Assembly: GCF_026627425.1 (NCBI RefSeq)
Contig: NZ_JAPNLH010000003.1
Coordinates: 1 to 64,000, forward strand
DNA: 64,000 bases
DNA from: Arthrobacter endolithicus
GTDB lineage: Bacteria > Actinomycetota > Actinomycetes > Actinomycetales > Micrococcaceae
Reading direction: 5' to 3'
Part shown: in pieces, positions 34,289 to 45,504 of the stretch
Layout of the letters: each line of letters opens with the position of its first letter
How positions within the stretch are numbered: position 1 is the stretch's first letter
The notes under the pieces: generated by a model
Seen by the model: the letters and a program-made list of their open reading frames with translations, nothing else
Told to the model about the DNA's origin: nothing
Databases searched by the model: none
Position numbers and translations under genes: made by a program

Positions 34289-35695
34289 CTATAGGTCCGC
34301 CAGCACGCCTCCCGGATTCTCTATCGCATCCGCAACGTAACGCAGGAACCCGCCGGCCGTGCCGCCGTCGCACACCCGGTGGTCAAAGACCAGCGTCAGC
34401 TCGGTCAGCTTTCGAACGGCCAAGGCGCCGTCTACCACCCAGGGCTTGTCAATGATCCGGCCAATGCCCAGGATCGCGGATTCGGGATAATTGATGATGG
34501 CAGCCGAGCCGTCCACACCGAAGACACCGTAATTATTGAGTGTGAAGGTGCCGCGCGCCAGCTCCGCGGGCGTTGCCTTTCCTGCACGGGTGACGGCGGT
34601 CAGCCGACGGATTTCAGCGTCCAGTTCCCTGGCGCTGAGTTTTTCAGCGTGCTCGACGGACGGGACCATCAGACCACGCTCGGTCTGGGCCGCAAAGCCC
34701 AGATTGATGCCGTCGAGGGCGACAATCTGCTGTCCTCCCTCCTCAGTTCCTTCAATCCGCGCATTGAGTTCCGGGTATCGTGCCAACCCGGCGGTCACGA
34801 AACGGGCGATGAAGGCCAGCAGGCCCGGAGTGCTGTCCGGATCCTGGTTTTTGAGCCCGCTGCGCAGTTCCACCAGCGCGGTGGCGTCGACGTCCACCCA
34901 CACGGTGGCCTCAGGGATTTCGCTGCGGCTCCGGCTAAGATTCGCCGCAACCGTCTTCCGCAGACCCTTCAGCCCGGTGCGGCTGCGGATGGTCAGGCCG
35001 GTTCGGGCATCCCGCTGCCCTGCACTGTCCGCACCGCCAGCACTGCCAGCACTGCCAGCACTGCCAGCACTGCCAGCACTGCCAGCACTGAATTGTCCCG
35101 CCAGCGCCGCCTCGACATCGCGGCGCAGGATCAGGCCCTGCTGCCCGGAACCCGGGATGGAATGCAGCACAAGGCCGCCATCGCGGGCCAGCTTGCGGAC
35201 CAGCGGTGAAATCACCAGTGGGCTTTTGTGATCGACGGAGACCGCCGCCGATGCGGTGAGGACCTCTGCAGGGCCGGTTCCCCCTGTGCTCGCAGAACCC
35301 GCCTGGCCGGCCGCGGGCTTCTTCCGCGGTCGCGTCCTGCCGCCGGCTCCATGGCCAGAGGTGCCATATCCGATCAAGACATTTCCGGAACCCTCGGATC
35401 CGCGGGCCTCCACCTGCTCATATTCCACGGCCTCATTCTCCTCGGTTCCATTCTTCGTTGACTGAACGGAAATCAGCGGTTTGCCGACATCCATCGTCTG
35501 TCCCGCTTTCCCGTGCAGCACTGCGACCTGACCGGCAAAGGGCGAGGGCACCTCGACAAGGGACTTTGCCGTTTCCACCTCCGCGATCGGCTGGTCCACG
35601 GCGATCTCGTCTCCCACCCTGACCAGCCATGTGACCAATTCCGCCTCGGTCAAACCCTCACCGAGATCCGGCAGCAGAAATACCTGCAAACTCAT
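34289..35695 (-). CDS. bkdC: Branched-chain 2-oxoacid dehydrogenase E2 (dihydrolipoyl acyltransferase)
   Basis: About 468 aa. A single lipoyl domain (residues 1-76, modified Lys in ETAKSLVEV), a linker, a peripheral-subunit-binding domain (~150-190, SPLVRKLARDGGL), a GSA-repeat linker and the catalytic domain (~240-468) with FDHRVCDGG (HxxxDG). It transfers the acyl group to CoA. The ATG at 35695 overlaps the E1-beta stop (ATGA); a longer frame to 35707 is not needed. The E3 subunit is not in the window. A pyruvate dehydrogenase role is the alternative. Confidence 0.88.
   Translation of the reverse strand: MSLQVFLLPDLGEGLTEAELVTWLVRVGDEIAVDQPIAEVETAKSLVEVPSPFAGQVAVLHGKAGQTMDVGKPLISVQSTKNGTEENEAVEYEQVEARGSEGSGNVLIGYGTSGHGAGGRTRPRKKPAAGQAGSASTGGTGPAEVLTASAAVSVDHKSPLVISPLVRKLARDGGLVLHSIPGSGQQGLILRRDVEAALAGQFSAGSAGSAGSAGSAGSAGGADSAGQRDARTGLTIRSRTGLKGLRKTVAANLSRSRSEIPEATVWVDVDATALVELRSGLKNQDPDSTPGLLAFIARFVTAGLARYPELNARIEGTEEGGQQIVALDGINLGFAAQTERGLMVPSVEHAEKLSARELDAEIRRLTAVTRAGKATPAELARGTFTLNNYGVFGVDGSAAIINYPESAILGIGRIIDKPWVVDGALAVRKLTELTLVFDHRVCDGGTAGGFLRYVADAIENPGGVLADL
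35041..35090. repeat. 9-bp in-frame tandem repeat in the E2 linker
   Basis: CACTGCCAG is repeated five times plus a partial copy, encoding a Gly-Ser-Ala flexible linker between the E1/E3-binding and catalytic domains. Copy number is likely variable between strains. Confidence 0.9.
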
Positions 35696-40856: not shown

Positions 40857-41422
40857 TAGTGCACCTTGAAGTAGTCGAAGGGTTCCTTGCAGTCCTGGCA
40901 GACATAGAGTGCCTTGCAGGCGGTGGATCCGAAACGAGTGAGTTCTTTGGTGTTTAGCGAGGAACACTGCGGACATTTGACCTGCAACGACAGTCTTACC
41001 GGTCCCCGCGCAGTATGCCCAATGCCGCCCGCGGCCGAGGTCCCGGAAGGAGCCGCTATGCCGTATTCGCGCAGCTTTGTCTTGCCCTCCGCGCTCATCC
41101 AGTCGGTGGTCCAGGCCGGGGAGAGCACCAGATTCACATGAACCGCAGGGTATCCCGCCTGCTCAAATGCGCGGGCCAGATCGTCGCGGATCGCGTCCAT
41201 CGCAGGGCAACCCGAGTAGGTGGGCGTGATGGTGACCTCGACGGCGGGAACGAACCCGCCGTCGTCGAACAGGCGTACCTCACGCAGGATGCCCAGATCC
41301 GCGATGCTGAGCACGGGAATTTCCGGATCGCAGACGGCGGCGGCGATCTCCCACGCCTTCTGGTCCGCGGTCCGCACCGTTCCCTGTTCCTCCCGATCCG
41401 CATACGGGTCCACGATCATCAC
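40856..41422 (-). CDS. paaD: Phenylacetyl-CoA epoxidase subunit PaaD (MIP18/DUF59 family)
   Basis: 188 aa. N-terminal MIP18-type domain (AWEIAAAVCDPEIPVLSIADLGIL) and a C-terminal zinc ribbon, CPQCSS and CQDC. PaaD is thought to help mature the iron centres of the epoxidase. The first codon is GTG 41422, overlapping the paaC stop, followed at once by ATG 41419; either may be used. Confidence 0.9.
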   Translation of the reverse strand: MMIVDPYADREEQGTVRTADQKAWEIAAAVCDPEIPVLSIADLGILREVRLFDDGGFVPAVEVTITPTYSGCPAMDAIRDDLARAFEQAGYPAVHVNLVLSPAWTTDWMSAEGKTKLREYGIAAPSGTSAAGGIGHTARGPVRLSLQVKCPQCSSLNTKELTRFGSTACKALYVCQDCKEPFDYFKVH

Positions 41423-42360
41423 CAGCTTGCTCCCGGATATTCGCGCGCCAGCACCTGCATCTCAGCCAGGATGTAGCCCATATGCTCCGAATGCTGTCCG
41501 CGTCGGCCGCCGCCGAGCGCCGAAGGAACGTGGGGTACGTCAATTTCGGCCTCCACCAACACCTCATCGGTCAGGCGATCAAAATCGGCGCGCAGCGAAG
41601 AGGGCGCGACGGCGGCGTCCCCGAGTCGTGCGGTCAGCGCATCGTCCTCGAACAGTTCGCCAACGTAGGGCCAGAGCAGTCGCAGTCCGGCCAGCAGACG
41701 GCCGCGGGATTCATCTGTCCCCAACGCCAGCCGCAGCACCCACTGCGCGCTGTGATCGCGGTGGTAATCCACTTCCTTGACCGCTTTGGCGGCGATAGCG
41801 GCGAGGGTGGCATCCGAAGAGTCGGTCAGCCGGCGGTACAGCTCGAACTGATAATAGGAGACGATGAACTGCCGGACGATGGTGACGGCGAAATCACCGT
41901 TGGGCTGCTCAAACAGATGCGCCGACCGGAACTCCGGCTCCCGCCGGAAGTAGGCAAGCTCGTCCTCGGTCTTTCCCCAGGCCGCGCCGGCGTAGGTCAG
42001 AAAGGAACGGGCATGGCCCAACTGGTCGAGGGCAATGTTGCCCAACGCCACATCTTCTTCCAGCTCGGGCGCACGCGAAATCCAGTGGCCCAACCGCTGA
42101 GCCAAGATCAGGGCATCATCTCCGAGCCGGAGGGCGTATTCGCCCACGTTTTCGCTGGGCTTGACGTCGCCGCGCTGCACTTCCAGGGCAATGTCCTCTG
42201 GACGCAGGGCGTTTCCCGGCGTGATGCGGGTGGCACTGGCTGGGCCCACGCCGGCGAGGGACCCGGCCTGAGCCTGCGAAGGTTGGGAGCCGGTGGCTGG
42301 GCCCACGCCGGCGAGGGACCCGGCCTGAGCCTGCGAAGGTTGGGAGCCGGTGGGGATCAC
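41419..42360 (-). CDS. paaC: Phenylacetyl-CoA epoxidase structural subunit PaaC with N-terminal repeat extension
   Basis: 313 aa. The core starts around residue 71 (NVGEYALRLGDDALILAQRL) and matches PaaC, the non-catalytic ferritin-like partner of PaaA (EVDYHRDHSAQWVLRLALG, SEHMGYILAEMQVLAREYPGA). Residues 4-41 are two copies of a 19-residue repeat [19 protein letters not shown] encoded by the 57-bp element. The GTG start at 42360 overlaps the paaB stop (GTGA), so the extension is translated if this coupling is used. Confidence 0.88.
   Translation of the reverse strand: MIPTGSQPSQAQAGSLAGVGPATGSQPSQAQAGSLAGVGPASATRITPGNALRPEDIALEVQRGDVKPSENVGEYALRLGDDALILAQRLGHWISRAPELEEDVALGNIALDQLGHARSFLTYAGAAWGKTEDELAYFRREPEFRSAHLFEQPNGDFAVTIVRQFIVSYYQFELYRRLTDSSDATLAAIAAKAVKEVDYHRDHSAQWVLRLALGTDESRGRLLAGLRLLWPYVGELFEDDALTARLGDAAVAPSSLRADFDRLTDEVLVEAEIDVPHVPSALGGGRRGQHSEHMGYILAEMQVLAREYPGASW
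42237..42350. repeat. 57-bp in-frame tandem repeat, 2 copies, 5' end of paaC
   Basis: Units 42237-42293 and 42294-42350, identical by eye. They lie six bases after the first codon of paaC, which reads GTGATCCCC before the array. The period is 19 codons with no stop in the gene frame. The unit is the same as that in the paaB array. Confidence 0.93.
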
Positions 42361-42815
42361 AGGTGCTTCACGCCTTCACTTTTGACGTAGTAGGTGGCAT
42401 GGCGATAGTCCTTGCCCTGCGGGGACTCGAAGAAGGATCCCTTGGAATCCGGGTCGCTGGCGGCAATCGCATCGGCGGGAACCACCCAAATGGAGACGCC
42501 TTCATTACGCCGGGTATACAGATCCCGCGCGTTCCGCAGCGCCATGGCCGCGTCCGGCGCATGCAGGGATCCTGCGTGCACATGGGAAAGACCGCGGCTG
42601 GAACGAACAAACACTTCCCACAAGGGCCAGCCGGTGGCTGGGCCCACGCCGGCGAGGGACCCGGCCTGAGCCTGCGAAGGTTGGGAGCCGGTGGCTGGGC
42701 CCACGCCGGCGAGGGACCCGGTCTGAGCCTGCGAAGGTTGGGAGCCGGTGGCTGGGCCCACGCCGGCGAGGGACCCGGTCTGAGCCTGCGAAGGTTGGGA
42801 GCCGGTGGGGATCAT
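42357..42815 (-). CDS. paaB: Phenylacetyl-CoA epoxidase subunit PaaB with N-terminal repeat extension
   Basis: 152 aa; family members are ~95. Residues 61-152 ([20 protein letters not shown] onward) are a normal PaaB. Residues 4-60 are three copies of the 19-residue repeat [19 protein letters not shown] (the last has Ala for Thr). Removing the three units restores [12 protein letters not shown], a natural PaaB start, which suggests insertion/expansion just after the start codon. The ATG at 42815 overlaps the paaA stop (ATGA). Confidence 0.9.
42635..42805. repeat. 57-bp in-frame tandem repeat, 3 copies, 5' end of paaB
   Basis: Units start at 42635, 42692 and 42749. The unit nearest the paaB core has C, the other two T, at the same position (Ala/Thr in the protein). 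Both this array and that of paaC are preceded on the coding strand by TGATCCCC at the gene junction. Confidence 0.95.
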
Positions 42816-43813
42816 GCCGCAACCTCATTCTTCGCTGCCATTTTCGCCGCGTACGCCGTCGCTGCCTCGCGGACCCAGGCGCCGTCGTCGTGCGCCTGGC
42901 GCCGGCGCTCCATCCGCTGCGCATTGCACGGTCCCCGCCCGGCCAGAACTTCCTTGAACTCTTCCCAGTCCAGCGGACCGTGCTCCCACTTCTTCGTATC
43001 CTCATTGAAGCGGACCTCGGGATCCGGCAGGGAAAGTCCCAGCACCTTGACCTGTTCGGCCATCATCCCGACAAACCGGGAACGCAGCTCGTCGTTACTG
43101 AACCGCTTGATATTCCAGGCCATGGACTGCTTCGAGTTGGGGGAGTCATCATCCGGGGGCCCGAACATCATTAGCGACGGGGCATACCAGCGGTCAACGG
43201 CATCCTGCGCCATCTGCTTTTGCGCAGGAGTCCCGTTTGCGAGTTCCAGGAGAATTTCGAAGCCCTGCCGCTGGTGGAAGGATTCTTCCTTGCAGACCCG
43301 GACCATCGCCCGCCCGTACGGGCCAAAGGACGCCCGGCACAGCGGCACCTGATTGCAGATTGCGGCGCCGTCGACCATCCAACCGATGGCACCCATGTCC
43401 GCCCAAGTCACCGTGGGGTAGTTAAAGATGCTTGAATAGCGGGCCTTGCCGGCCACCAGCTGGCCCATCATCTCGTCGCGGGAGGTGCCGAGAGTCTCGG
43501 CCGCAGAATAGAGATACAGCCCGTGGCCCGCCTCGTCCTGCACCTTGGCCATCAGGATGGCTTTGCGTTTGAGGCTCGGAGCGCGGCTGATCCAGTTAGC
43601 CTCCGGCTGCATACCGATGATTTCGGAGTGCGCGTGTTGGGAAATCTGGCGCACGAGCGTACGCCGATAGGCGTCCGGCATCCAGTCCCGCGGCTCGATC
43701 CGCGAGTCCTCCGCCATGACATGGTCAAAATATGCCTGCCCGGCATCCGCGTCCAGCTGGGATTGCTGCTGCGAAGGGGCAACGTCTCCGACTGCCTGCA
43801 GATTTTGCGCCAT
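42812..43813 (-). CDS. paaA: Phenylacetyl-CoA epoxidase catalytic subunit
   Basis: 333 aa di-iron oxygenase. Iron-ligand motifs [13 protein letters not shown] and [19 protein letters not shown] (ExxH type) are intact, with [19 protein letters not shown] before them. It epoxidises the ring of phenylacetyl-CoA. First gene of paaABCDE-paaG. GAGGAG lies seven bases before the ATG. A TetR-type operator overlaps the -10 just upstream. Confidence 0.95.
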
Positions 43814-43975: not shown

Positions 43976-44062
43976 GTGATACTTACACTTTCAGCAGTCC
44001 GTGGCCCCGACCCTATTCATGCAGGGTCCGCACCCGGAATCTTTTGCCGGGGCCGCGAATAA
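43976..44062 (+). CDS. Small upstream ORF coupled to the DUF2254 gene
   Basis: A 28-codon frame from GTG 43976 (or 30 codons from ATG 43970), with GGAGG at 43963-43967 giving an 8-base spacing to the GTG. It ends in TAA at 44060-44062, overlapping the DUF2254 ATG as TAATG. The peptide is unremarkable (begins ILTLSAVRGPDPIHAG after the start). It probably serves translational coupling rather than a separate function. Confidence 0.45.
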   Translation: MILTLSAVRGPDPIHAGSAPGIFCRGRE

Positions 44063-45504
44063 TGTCCCGGTCCAGCAGTGGGCGCCTGCGGGTAGCTCTT
44101 GATGCGTTGGCATCCCTGCTGTGGCCGCTGCCTGCCTTGGGCGTCGTCGTCGCCCTGGCTGCCGGAATTGGGCTGCCGCTGGTGGATGTCGCCGTCACCG
44201 ATGATCTGCCGCCCGCCCTGAAGGTATCTCTATTCGGCGGGGGGCCTGCGGCGGCACGTGCGGTGCTGGAAGCCATCGCCAGCTCACTGGTTACGGTAAC
44301 GTCTCTAACCTTTTCGCTGACTGTCATCACACTACAGCTTGCCAGCAGCCAGTTTTCGCCGCGGCTGCTGCGCAACTTCACCGCTGACCGCACGGTCCAT
44401 GGCGTCCTGACGCTTTTTTTGGGCACGTTCACGTTCGCACTGACCGTGCTGCGGACCGTTCGCTCAGAAAATGGCGGCCAGACCGGCTTCGTACCCCAGA
44501 TTTCCGTTTCCCTGGCGTTCATTCTGGAGATTGCCAGCATCATAGGGCTGGTATATTTCCTGGCCCACCTGGCACGGGAGATCCGCGTGGACACCGTTAT
44601 GGCCAATGTGCACCGCGAGACGACCGCGACCATCAGCAGGCTCTTCCCCGACCGCGTTGACGGCGGGAACGGAGACGACGACGGCGGGGACGGCGACGAC
44701 GGCGGCGGGGACGCAGGTGGCCGCGGGCGTCCGCGGCCGGTGCCGGAAGCGCGGACGGCCATCCTTATTGAGTCAGTGACCTCTGGCTTTTTACTTAGCA
44801 TCGATCCGGACGACCTACTGGAAGCAGCCACGGCGAACAACGCCGTCATCCGCATCGACCGTGAGCCCGGAAGTTCCATCGTTCGGGGAACGCCGCTGGC
44901 AACGGCGTGGCCAGTGGTGTCGAATCAGCCGTTGACGGACCAGAACACCGAAGCACTCCGCAAGGCAGTTTCGAGTGCGGCCACCATTGGTTTTGAGCGC
45001 ACCATAGTCCAGGACGTCAGCTTCGGCCTACGTCAACTGACCGATGTCGCCGCACGGGCACTCTCCCCCGGCGTTAACGACCCGACCACCGCCGTCCATG
45101 TGCTCGGCCATCTTTCTGCCATCCTGTGCGACCTTGCCGGCCGGAAGTTAGGCCCGCGCACCGTGGCGGACGGTAGCGGCCAGATCCGGGTCGTGATCGC
45201 CCAGCCAGGATTTGCTTCCTTGCTGGACTTGGCCATTGGCCAGCCCCGACGGTACGGGGTCGCAGATCCCGTGGTGGCGGGCCGGATCCTCGACCTACTC
45301 AAAGAGGTGGCCTGGTGCAGCTCAACACCCTCGCTTAGAGCAGTCTTGGCGGATCAGCTGACCCGGATGGAACAGCAGATGCAGGAGCAGACATTTGTTC
45401 CGGCGGACCGAGATCACCTGCAGTCCATGTCCCGGGGCGTGCGTGCCGCGCTGCAGGGGGTATGGACGGAGGAGGCGTTTGCGCGCGACCAGCAGCCGGG
45501 GTGA
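44062..45504 (+). CDS. DUF2254 family membrane protein
   Basis: 480 aa. Four hydrophobic segments in the first ~170 residues, including TSLTFSLTVITLQLASSQFSPRLLRNF, the family hallmark. A Gly/Asp-rich low-complexity stretch (~198-222) separates this from the soluble C-terminal domain with SFGLRQLTDVAARALSPGVNDPTTA. Function unknown; the family is widespread in bacteria. The ATG overlaps the stop of a small upstream frame. It is divergent from paaA and not obviously part of that pathway. Confidence 0.87.
   Translation: MSRSSSGRLRVALDALASLLWPLPALGVVVALAAGIGLPLVDVAVTDDLPPALKVSLFGGGPAAARAVLEAIASSLVTVTSLTFSLTVITLQLASSQFSPRLLRNFTADRTVHGVLTLFLGTFTFALTVLRTVRSENGGQTGFVPQISVSLAFILEIASIIGLVYFLAHLAREIRVDTVMANVHRETTATISRLFPDRVDGGNGDDDGGDGDDGGGDAGGRGRPRPVPEARTAILIESVTSGFLLSIDPDDLLEAATANNAVIRIDREPGSSIVRGTPLATAWPVVSNQPLTDQNTEALRKAVSSAATIGFERTIVQDVSFGLRQLTDVAARALSPGVNDPTTAVHVLGHLSAILCDLAGRKLGPRTVADGSGQIRVVIAQPGFASLLDLAIGQPRRYGVADPVVAGRILDLLKEVAWCSSTPSLRAVLADQLTRMEQQMQEQTFVPADRDHLQSMSRGVRAALQGVWTEEAFARDQQPG

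Follow-up and report, generated by a model that had tools for sequence, protein, structure and literature searches.

The window analysed here is a stretch of 64,000 nucleotides from a contig of Arthrobacter endolithicus (NZ_JAPNLH010000003.1). It carries the genes paaA-paaB-paaC-paaD-paaE on the minus strand, identified by NCBIfam equivalogs, and short tandem repeats stand behind the start codons of paaB and paaC:

42812 to 43813, minus strand: paaA (TIGR02156, E 4.1e-145)
42812 to 42815, minus strand: ATGA, the paaA stop overlapping the paaB start, with the element starting at the next base
42357 to 42815, minus strand: paaB, 152 aa (TIGR02157, E 1.6e-36 at residues 63-151; PDB 4iit_B matches residues 62-152)
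42811 to 42807, minus strand: TCCCC, the 5' edge of the element in the paaB array
42636 to 42806, minus strand: three tandem 57-bp units behind the paaB start (TRF; covariance-model matches at 42755-42811, 42698-42754 and 42641-42697)
42750 to 42806, 42693 to 42749 and 42636 to 42692, minus strand: the paaB units singly, each exactly 57 bp
42357 to 42360, minus strand: GTGA, the paaB stop overlapping the paaC start, with the element starting at the next base
41419 to 42360, minus strand: paaC, 313 aa (TIGR02158, E 5e-87 at residues 79-313; PDB 4iit_C matches residues 72-313)
42356 to 42352, minus strand: TCCCC, the 5' edge of the element in the paaC array
42238 to 42351, minus strand: two tandem 57-bp units behind the paaC start (TRF; covariance-model matches at 42300-42356 and 42243-42299)
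42295 to 42351 and 42238 to 42294, minus strand: the paaC units singly, each exactly 57 bp
41422 to 41419, minus strand: GTGA, the paaC/paaD overlap, without a 57-bp unit

A preliminary description of this DNA reported three 57-bp units in paaB and two in paaC, adding 57 and 38 residues in frame, and our analysis confirms these figures, together with the presence of TGATCCCC before each array at the overlapping stop and start (42807-42814 and 42352-42359). The third paaB unit is identical to both paaC units, and the first two paaB units differ from it at one base. The arrays are not a product of chance: a 27-base piece of the unit has five matches in the window at up to three mismatches, compared with none in 100 shuffles. 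About residues 2-62 of PaaB and 2-41 of PaaC derive from the element. The PaaB core follows from about residue 62, and the NCBIfam models of PaaB and PaaC begin at residues 63 and 79, downstream of the arrays. Solved relatives cover PaaC from residues 71-73 on (4iit_C, 3pvr_B and 1otk_A), and the element-encoded residues precede this region. It had also been proposed that removing the paaB units restores a normal start. This is not simply the original one, as the MIPTG that is left is the element's own 5' edge; in a congener without the element at this junction (G003), the PaaB N-terminus begins with GTG.

The unit belongs to a dispersed family of palindromic repeats in the Micrococcaceae, mostly 57-59 bp long and with the ends TCCCCACCGGC...GCCGGCGTGGGCC. 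Loci read in relatives give the consensus TCCCCACCGGCTCCCA-arm-TCGC..GC-arm-GGG(T/G)CCCTCGCCGGCGTGGGCC. DNA of the arrays has matches in 115 of 395 family genomes (many of the matches listed start at the first query base, in the junction), a covariance model has matches in 35 of 120, and the exact pattern occurs in at least 117 stretches of genome contigs; Arthrobacter, Pseudarthrobacter, Sinomonas and Specibacter are the genera among the 80 titles listed. The highest count among the rows listed is that of G113, with up to 42 covariance-model matches, 46 candidates being scored per genome. The match in Arthrobacter sp. ERGS1:01 (L006, 3001-3062) is a further copy, inside an annotated DEAD/DEAH box helicase gene. 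As a side observation, this copy and another (L102, 1919-1975) stand at the non-stop site ATCG, and the upstream sequence of L102 resembles that of L006. Within paa all 21 extracted rows (about 13 distinct sites) are 57 bp long, the extraction pattern having caught 13 paa sites and missed others. A length of 57 bp is not special to paa, being the commonest elsewhere too: among 120 rows outside paa, from the same kind of pattern, which misses some copies, and with related loci included, 62 are 57 bp, 22 are 58 bp, 28 are 59 bp and 8 have other lengths.

Nine covariance-model matches in the A. endolithicus genome reach E<=0.01, namely the five paa units, three at C55:27506-27673 and one at C1:57373; a tenth is weak (E 0.53). 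The array on contig C55 (L287-L289) consists of three tandem 56-bp units directly 3' of the TAG of an IMP dehydrogenase gene (IMPDH domain PF00478, E 2e-154), outside that gene and with arms that differ from those of the paa units. Its unit length and its place behind a stop show that the element is not restricted to start codons and that its length need not be a multiple of three. A search by exact pattern with up to two mismatches had confined the unit to paa in this genome, a result overturned by the covariance model. The weaker match at C1:57373-57429 (L290; E 8.7e-6) is flanked by two genes, one encoding a Rho RNA-binding domain and the other an RF-1 domain. Pfam provided the gene identities given here and below for carboxyl transferase, ACC_epsilon, IMPDH, Rho and release factor 1. 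Between 41900 and 43200 of the window, the sole Rfam match lies outside the arrays (CRISPR-DR16, E 0.46, 18.4 bits for a gathering score of 35).

The evidence for a hairpin is comparative, and does not come from folding of the A. endolithicus sequence itself. In an alignment of 37 distinct elements, 9 of 19 putative pairs have changed on both sides, and the covariation score is 0.247, compared with 0.059 after shuffling and at most 0.035 with partners slid. Since this alignment was typed and chosen by hand, the count was redone on a machine-extracted set comprising all 93 distinct units of 55-60 nt. Here, 90.0% of cells are paired, with 7 double-changed pairs (shuffled mean 5.1, maximum 6) and 138 double-changed cells (shuffled mean 51.6, maximum 66; slid partners 6-25). 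The predicted helix of positions 3-11 with 47-57 is paired in 95.5% of cells, and the two ends, TCCCCACCGGC and GCCGGCGTGGGCC, form an imperfect inverted repeat. The A. endolithicus unit folds no better than shuffles, either as DNA (z -0.50 and +0.89) or as a three-unit RNA stretch (z -0.38); another family member folding alone gave z -1.90. Conserved palindromic pairing is a feature that the element shares with REPs in the broad sense.

The sequence 5' of the element is far from random. Among 127 exact copies, TCCCC is preceded by a stop triplet in 52 (TAG 36, TAA 9, TGA 7) and by AAG in 33, the AAG-preceded copies being mostly nested in the loop of another copy; read as quartets, CTAG precedes 34, CAAG 30 and GTAG 1. 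The covariance model run over 117 loci gave 171 matches, which merge into 124 arrays or singles. Nineteen of these stand flush behind a coding-like stop, 30 follow a stop triplet that closes no such frame, 31 are nested and 44 fall into none of these classes; the corresponding figures for 65 distinct contexts are 13, 5, 15 and 32. Only 0.12 of the 124 would be expected flush behind a coding-like stop (0.094% of 1,842,058 positions in the same loci, both strands). Equally, of the 49 edges preceded by a stop triplet, 19 have a coding-like stop there, whereas 5.4% of all stop triplets in these loci are of this kind. When the edge is shifted by -1 to -12, four coding-like stops are met at -1, three at -3, one at -10 and none otherwise. 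Shifts of +1 to +12 all give zero and are no control, because the element's first bases contain no stop triplet; the position background was used instead. Of the 44 non-nested contexts, among 61 distinct ones, 31 have T at -3, where the background is 0.16, and 35 have a purine at -2. The element thus prefers a TRR 5' flank and is strongly over-represented at gene stops, an excess that may reflect survival there as well as targeting. At the same time, 105 of the 124 arrays lie elsewhere than flush behind a coding-like stop, and 44 are not nested and follow no stop triplet. The earlier suggestion that the repeat targets start codons does not hold, since elsewhere copies lie behind stops without an overlapping start, as at the IMP dehydrogenase gene of the same genome. 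The two paa junctions had further been thought to be copied from each other. Their likeness is real, and its reason is the preference for a TRR or stop-like 5' flank, acting at two stop/start overlaps; the identical units in paaB and paaC would also agree with one array having been copied from the other, or with both stemming recently from one source. Observed arrays are direct tandems. Other copies are nested in the loops of their neighbours, usually after CAAG or CCAG (L066, L067, L277, L108, L122, L130 and L195), and can help to fix where the element ends; L108 has four left arms and two right ends only.

PaaB is present in 361 of the 395 family genomes, and we read the junctions in 110 genomes including A. 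endolithicus (30 loci and 80 stretches, mostly best-scoring and not a random sample). By a pattern that overlooks relics (e.g. L272, L209) and includes a truncated copy (L217), 6 of 110 genomes carry the element at paaA/paaB, 4 of them flush with the stop, and 14 of 107 carry it at paaB/paaC, 13 of them flush, no PaaC motif having been recognised in 3 of the 110. All 20 element-bearing junctions are stop/start overlaps, and each leaves an open frame that begins at the overlapping start. A second repeat family (GGTTTCGACAAGCTCAACC-like) is read in frame in 8 of 110 paaA/paaB tails, and every repeat-bearing junction opens into PaaB or PaaC (27 of 27; 20 with the element and 7 with the second repeat only). 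This second repeat is palindromic-looking and GGTTTCGACAAGCTCAACCACCGG-like, and was seen in the PaaB tails of L046, L202, L203, L206, L223, L245, L270 and L280. In overlapped junctions, with or without a repeat, the tail length always leaves a remainder of 2 on division by 3 (78 of 78 and 105 of 105), and across the 110 genomes the span from the stop to the conserved motif runs from 14 to 239 nt for paaB and from 8 to 362 nt for paaC.

Carriers are scattered. On a tree of the 110 loci, which rests on about 1 kb, parsimony requires 10 changes for the 14 carriers at paaB/paaC (shuffled labels: mean 13.4, minimum 11) and 5 changes for the 6 carriers at paaA/paaB (mean 5.9, minimum 5). It follows that the element at paa has probably been gained or lost many times, with the proviso that tree error could inflate the number of changes. 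Three of the four other congeners read (G001, G002 and G003) have no element at either paa junction, and the fourth (G004) carries three units at paaB/paaC and, at paaA/paaB, a single copy that looks nested. Copy number therefore differs between congeners (G000, our genome, and G004), in line with the variability between strains that had been foreseen; arm sequence, unit number and nesting also vary among carriers.

Four-nucleotide gene overlaps are common, and paa is over-represented among the sites of the element. A strict scan of the 64-kb window detected six other 4-nt overlaps of coding-like frames, a lower bound because the paa overlaps escaped it. The exact RTGA-flush pattern RTGATCCCCACCGRCTCCC was found at 18 places in 17 of the 395 genomes, with none for the backward control, and 15 of the 18 are in paa. 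We give no probability for this concentration because the carriers are related. The remaining three are one carboxyl-transferase/epsilon pair, one copy running into a contig end and one with a 23-residue frame. In the first of these (L297, 1501), the element follows a carboxyl-transferase gene (PF01039) and supplies the N-terminus of the next gene's product, an acyl-CoA carboxylase epsilon protein of 92 residues with PF13822 at 30-87. The same gene pair carries the element in three contig stretches (L108 at 4468, L122 at 4442 and L152 at 3442), again as the N-terminus of the epsilon protein; the L108 epsilon-like protein has no NCBIfam match.

Based upon these observations, we consider it likely that a REP-like element which settles behind stops becomes an N-terminal tail where stop and start overlap, and is accepted where the tail is dispensable and the frame is kept. 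The Micrococcaceae element would insert 3' of a TRR triplet, often a gene stop, its mobility being suggested by distribution and nesting. Stop and start overlap by four bases in paaABC, so a position behind the stop is also behind the next start, and the arrays come to lie behind the paa start codons because the stop codon sets the site. The element would then be read in one fixed frame (M/V-IPTGS...), as its open frame suggests, and the paa copies probably give rise to N-terminal tails of the proteins. Frame-breaking inserts would be lost. Those that keep the frame could persist, the tails of PaaB and PaaC being variable and outside the structurally covered core. Units are seen both in tandem and nested within the junction, and tandem growth and nesting may then alter copy number. 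To judge from sequence, the tails are probably mainly tolerated passengers. Two ideas in the preliminary description, in-frame N-terminal additions and a selfish repeat tolerated at gene ends, are both supported.

How the element moves is the point on which an alternative competes most closely. It could be a MITE, descended from a classical insertion sequence with terminal inverted repeats and unable to move by itself, an origin we regard as somewhat unlikely. Terminal inverted repeats are present, though imperfect (TCCCCACCGGC and GCCGGCGTGGGCC), and copies are dispersed and nested. Against this origin, exact patterns applied to 117 loci of up to 8 kb found no lone left and right ends separated by 300-3000 bp, and no target-site duplication was noticed by eye at nested copies, where the right edge is resolved to about 2 nt. 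A RAYT as mobiliser is not supported either. Neither the A. endolithicus genome (G000) nor G004 has a gene for Y1_Tnp, the REP transposase; Y1_Tnp occurs in 10 of 245 genomes, including that of a congener, G003, and those of two carriers, G113 and G230. None of 13 fetched Y1_Tnp loci (about 3 kb each) contains the element's left arm by exact pattern, and one holds a 12-base right-arm piece.

Alternatively, selection may have kept the hairpin or the tails, either because ribosome slowing sets the PaaA:PaaB:PaaC ratio or because the tails tether the complex. According to PMC12306157, E. coli REPs placed no more than 15 nt from a stop reduce translation or cause ribosomes to stall, and the share of RTGA-flush exact copies in paa (15 of 18, over 395 genomes) is in keeping with a selected role. 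We nevertheless judge it unlikely. By pattern, relics not being counted, the element is absent from 104 of 110 paaA/paaB and 93 of 107 paaB/paaC junctions, as it is from three of four other congeners read (G001, G002, G003), and arms, unit number and nesting differ between carriers. Tolerance of long tails would by itself account for the concentration in paa. A bolder combination seems to us quite unlikely. In it, a mobile hairpin element, moved by a transposase, has an insertion chemistry that recognises a stop-like TRR and so repeatedly gives N-terminal tails to the downstream, translationally coupled protein at 4-nt gene overlaps, and paa is a recurrent landing site whose tails (up to about 120 residues) adjust subunit synthesis.

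That the arrays are an untranslated leader, with PaaB and PaaC starting downstream of them, appears very unlikely. Passages of Di Nocera et al. (2013; PMC3733652) suggest as much for many REPs annotated at NH2 termini in several species, and warn that such REPs may be untranslated. Each unit holds an in-frame GTG, the last shortly before GWPLWEVF, so that a start inside the array may be possible. Yet the frame from the overlapping start is kept in 27 of 27 repeat-bearing junctions even though 50 of 120 rows elsewhere are 58-59 bp long, and such a frame filter would be unexpected for a leader; the carriers are related, so the independent events number fewer than 27. Plain local tandem duplication by slippage at each gene start, with no dispersed element, fits the near-identical tandem copies in paa and explains copy number only; it is extremely improbable given that the same hairpin is spread over many loci and genera and that the arms differ between the paa and IMP dehydrogenase arrays of one genome. 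An assembly artefact is likewise extremely improbable: the genome is a draft of 72 contigs, yet G004 carries near-identical units (93-98% over matched stretches) at both junctions in another arrangement.

The kind of element described here is already known, because both REPs behind stops or inside ORFs and in-frame Rickettsia palindromic elements (RPE) are in print. The closest likeness is to the GTAG/CGTC-tagged REPs, which passages of Di Nocera et al. (2013; PMC3733652) present as short palindromes, often just 3' of genes and grouped. In the same passages, REPs lie near 3' ends, some inside ORFs or at NH2 termini, and those with a GTAG terminus can supply a TAG stop. Set against what is given there, the flank here is TRR-like (CTAG commonest) instead of a fixed GTAG or CGTC tag, the length is 57-59 bp instead of 20-40 bp, and the Micrococcaceae element sits at overlapping stops and starts in a genome without Y1_Tnp. 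The words Arthrobacter and Actinobacteria are absent from the main text of that paper. With a GTAG foot in 1 of 127 copies, no Y1_Tnp gene in this genome and no left arm at 13 Y1_Tnp loci, the element does not count as a RAYT-associated GTAG REP. RPE resemble it as palindromes that stand in frame in unrelated genes (passages of PMC10969869 and PMC3733652), and in-frame insertion in protein-coding genes is found here too (27 of 27 open); for proteins with an N-terminal RPE-1, expression is reported. RPE are about 150 bp long, however, compared with 57-59 bp in 112 of 120 rows outside paa, and in paa, unlike RPE, placement follows from the upstream stop. REPINs and BIMEs (PMC3116915 and PMC2817692) share dispersed palindromes and clustered copies but have RAYT transposases; no such transposase was found here, and the copies are direct tandems or nested in loops. 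Table 3 of PMC12306157 gives 5,512 putative REPs in Arthrobacter livingstonensis, which may or may not include the Micrococcaceae element. We did not find the Micrococcaceae family, its TRR flank or its repeated presence at paa overlaps described in the open-access literature.

Some unusual N-termini of GC-rich bacteria could follow from one simple rule, in that a stop-flanking repeat would yield a tail wherever stop and start overlap, and annotated 'MIPTGS...' starts can be element sequence. The findings also identify a family of repeats and an operon where it recurrently lands, for which many species serve as replicates, and offer a test of how much N-terminal extension or hairpin a well-studied multi-subunit oxygenase tolerates. 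Elsewhere in the window, a 9-bp tandem repeat (GCACTGCCA, 7.7 copies) lies at 35022-35090, and a 21-bp tandem repeat with Gly/Asp-rich coding lies at 44659-44713, inside a plus-strand ORF (44044-45504) that is upstream of paaA and divergent from it.
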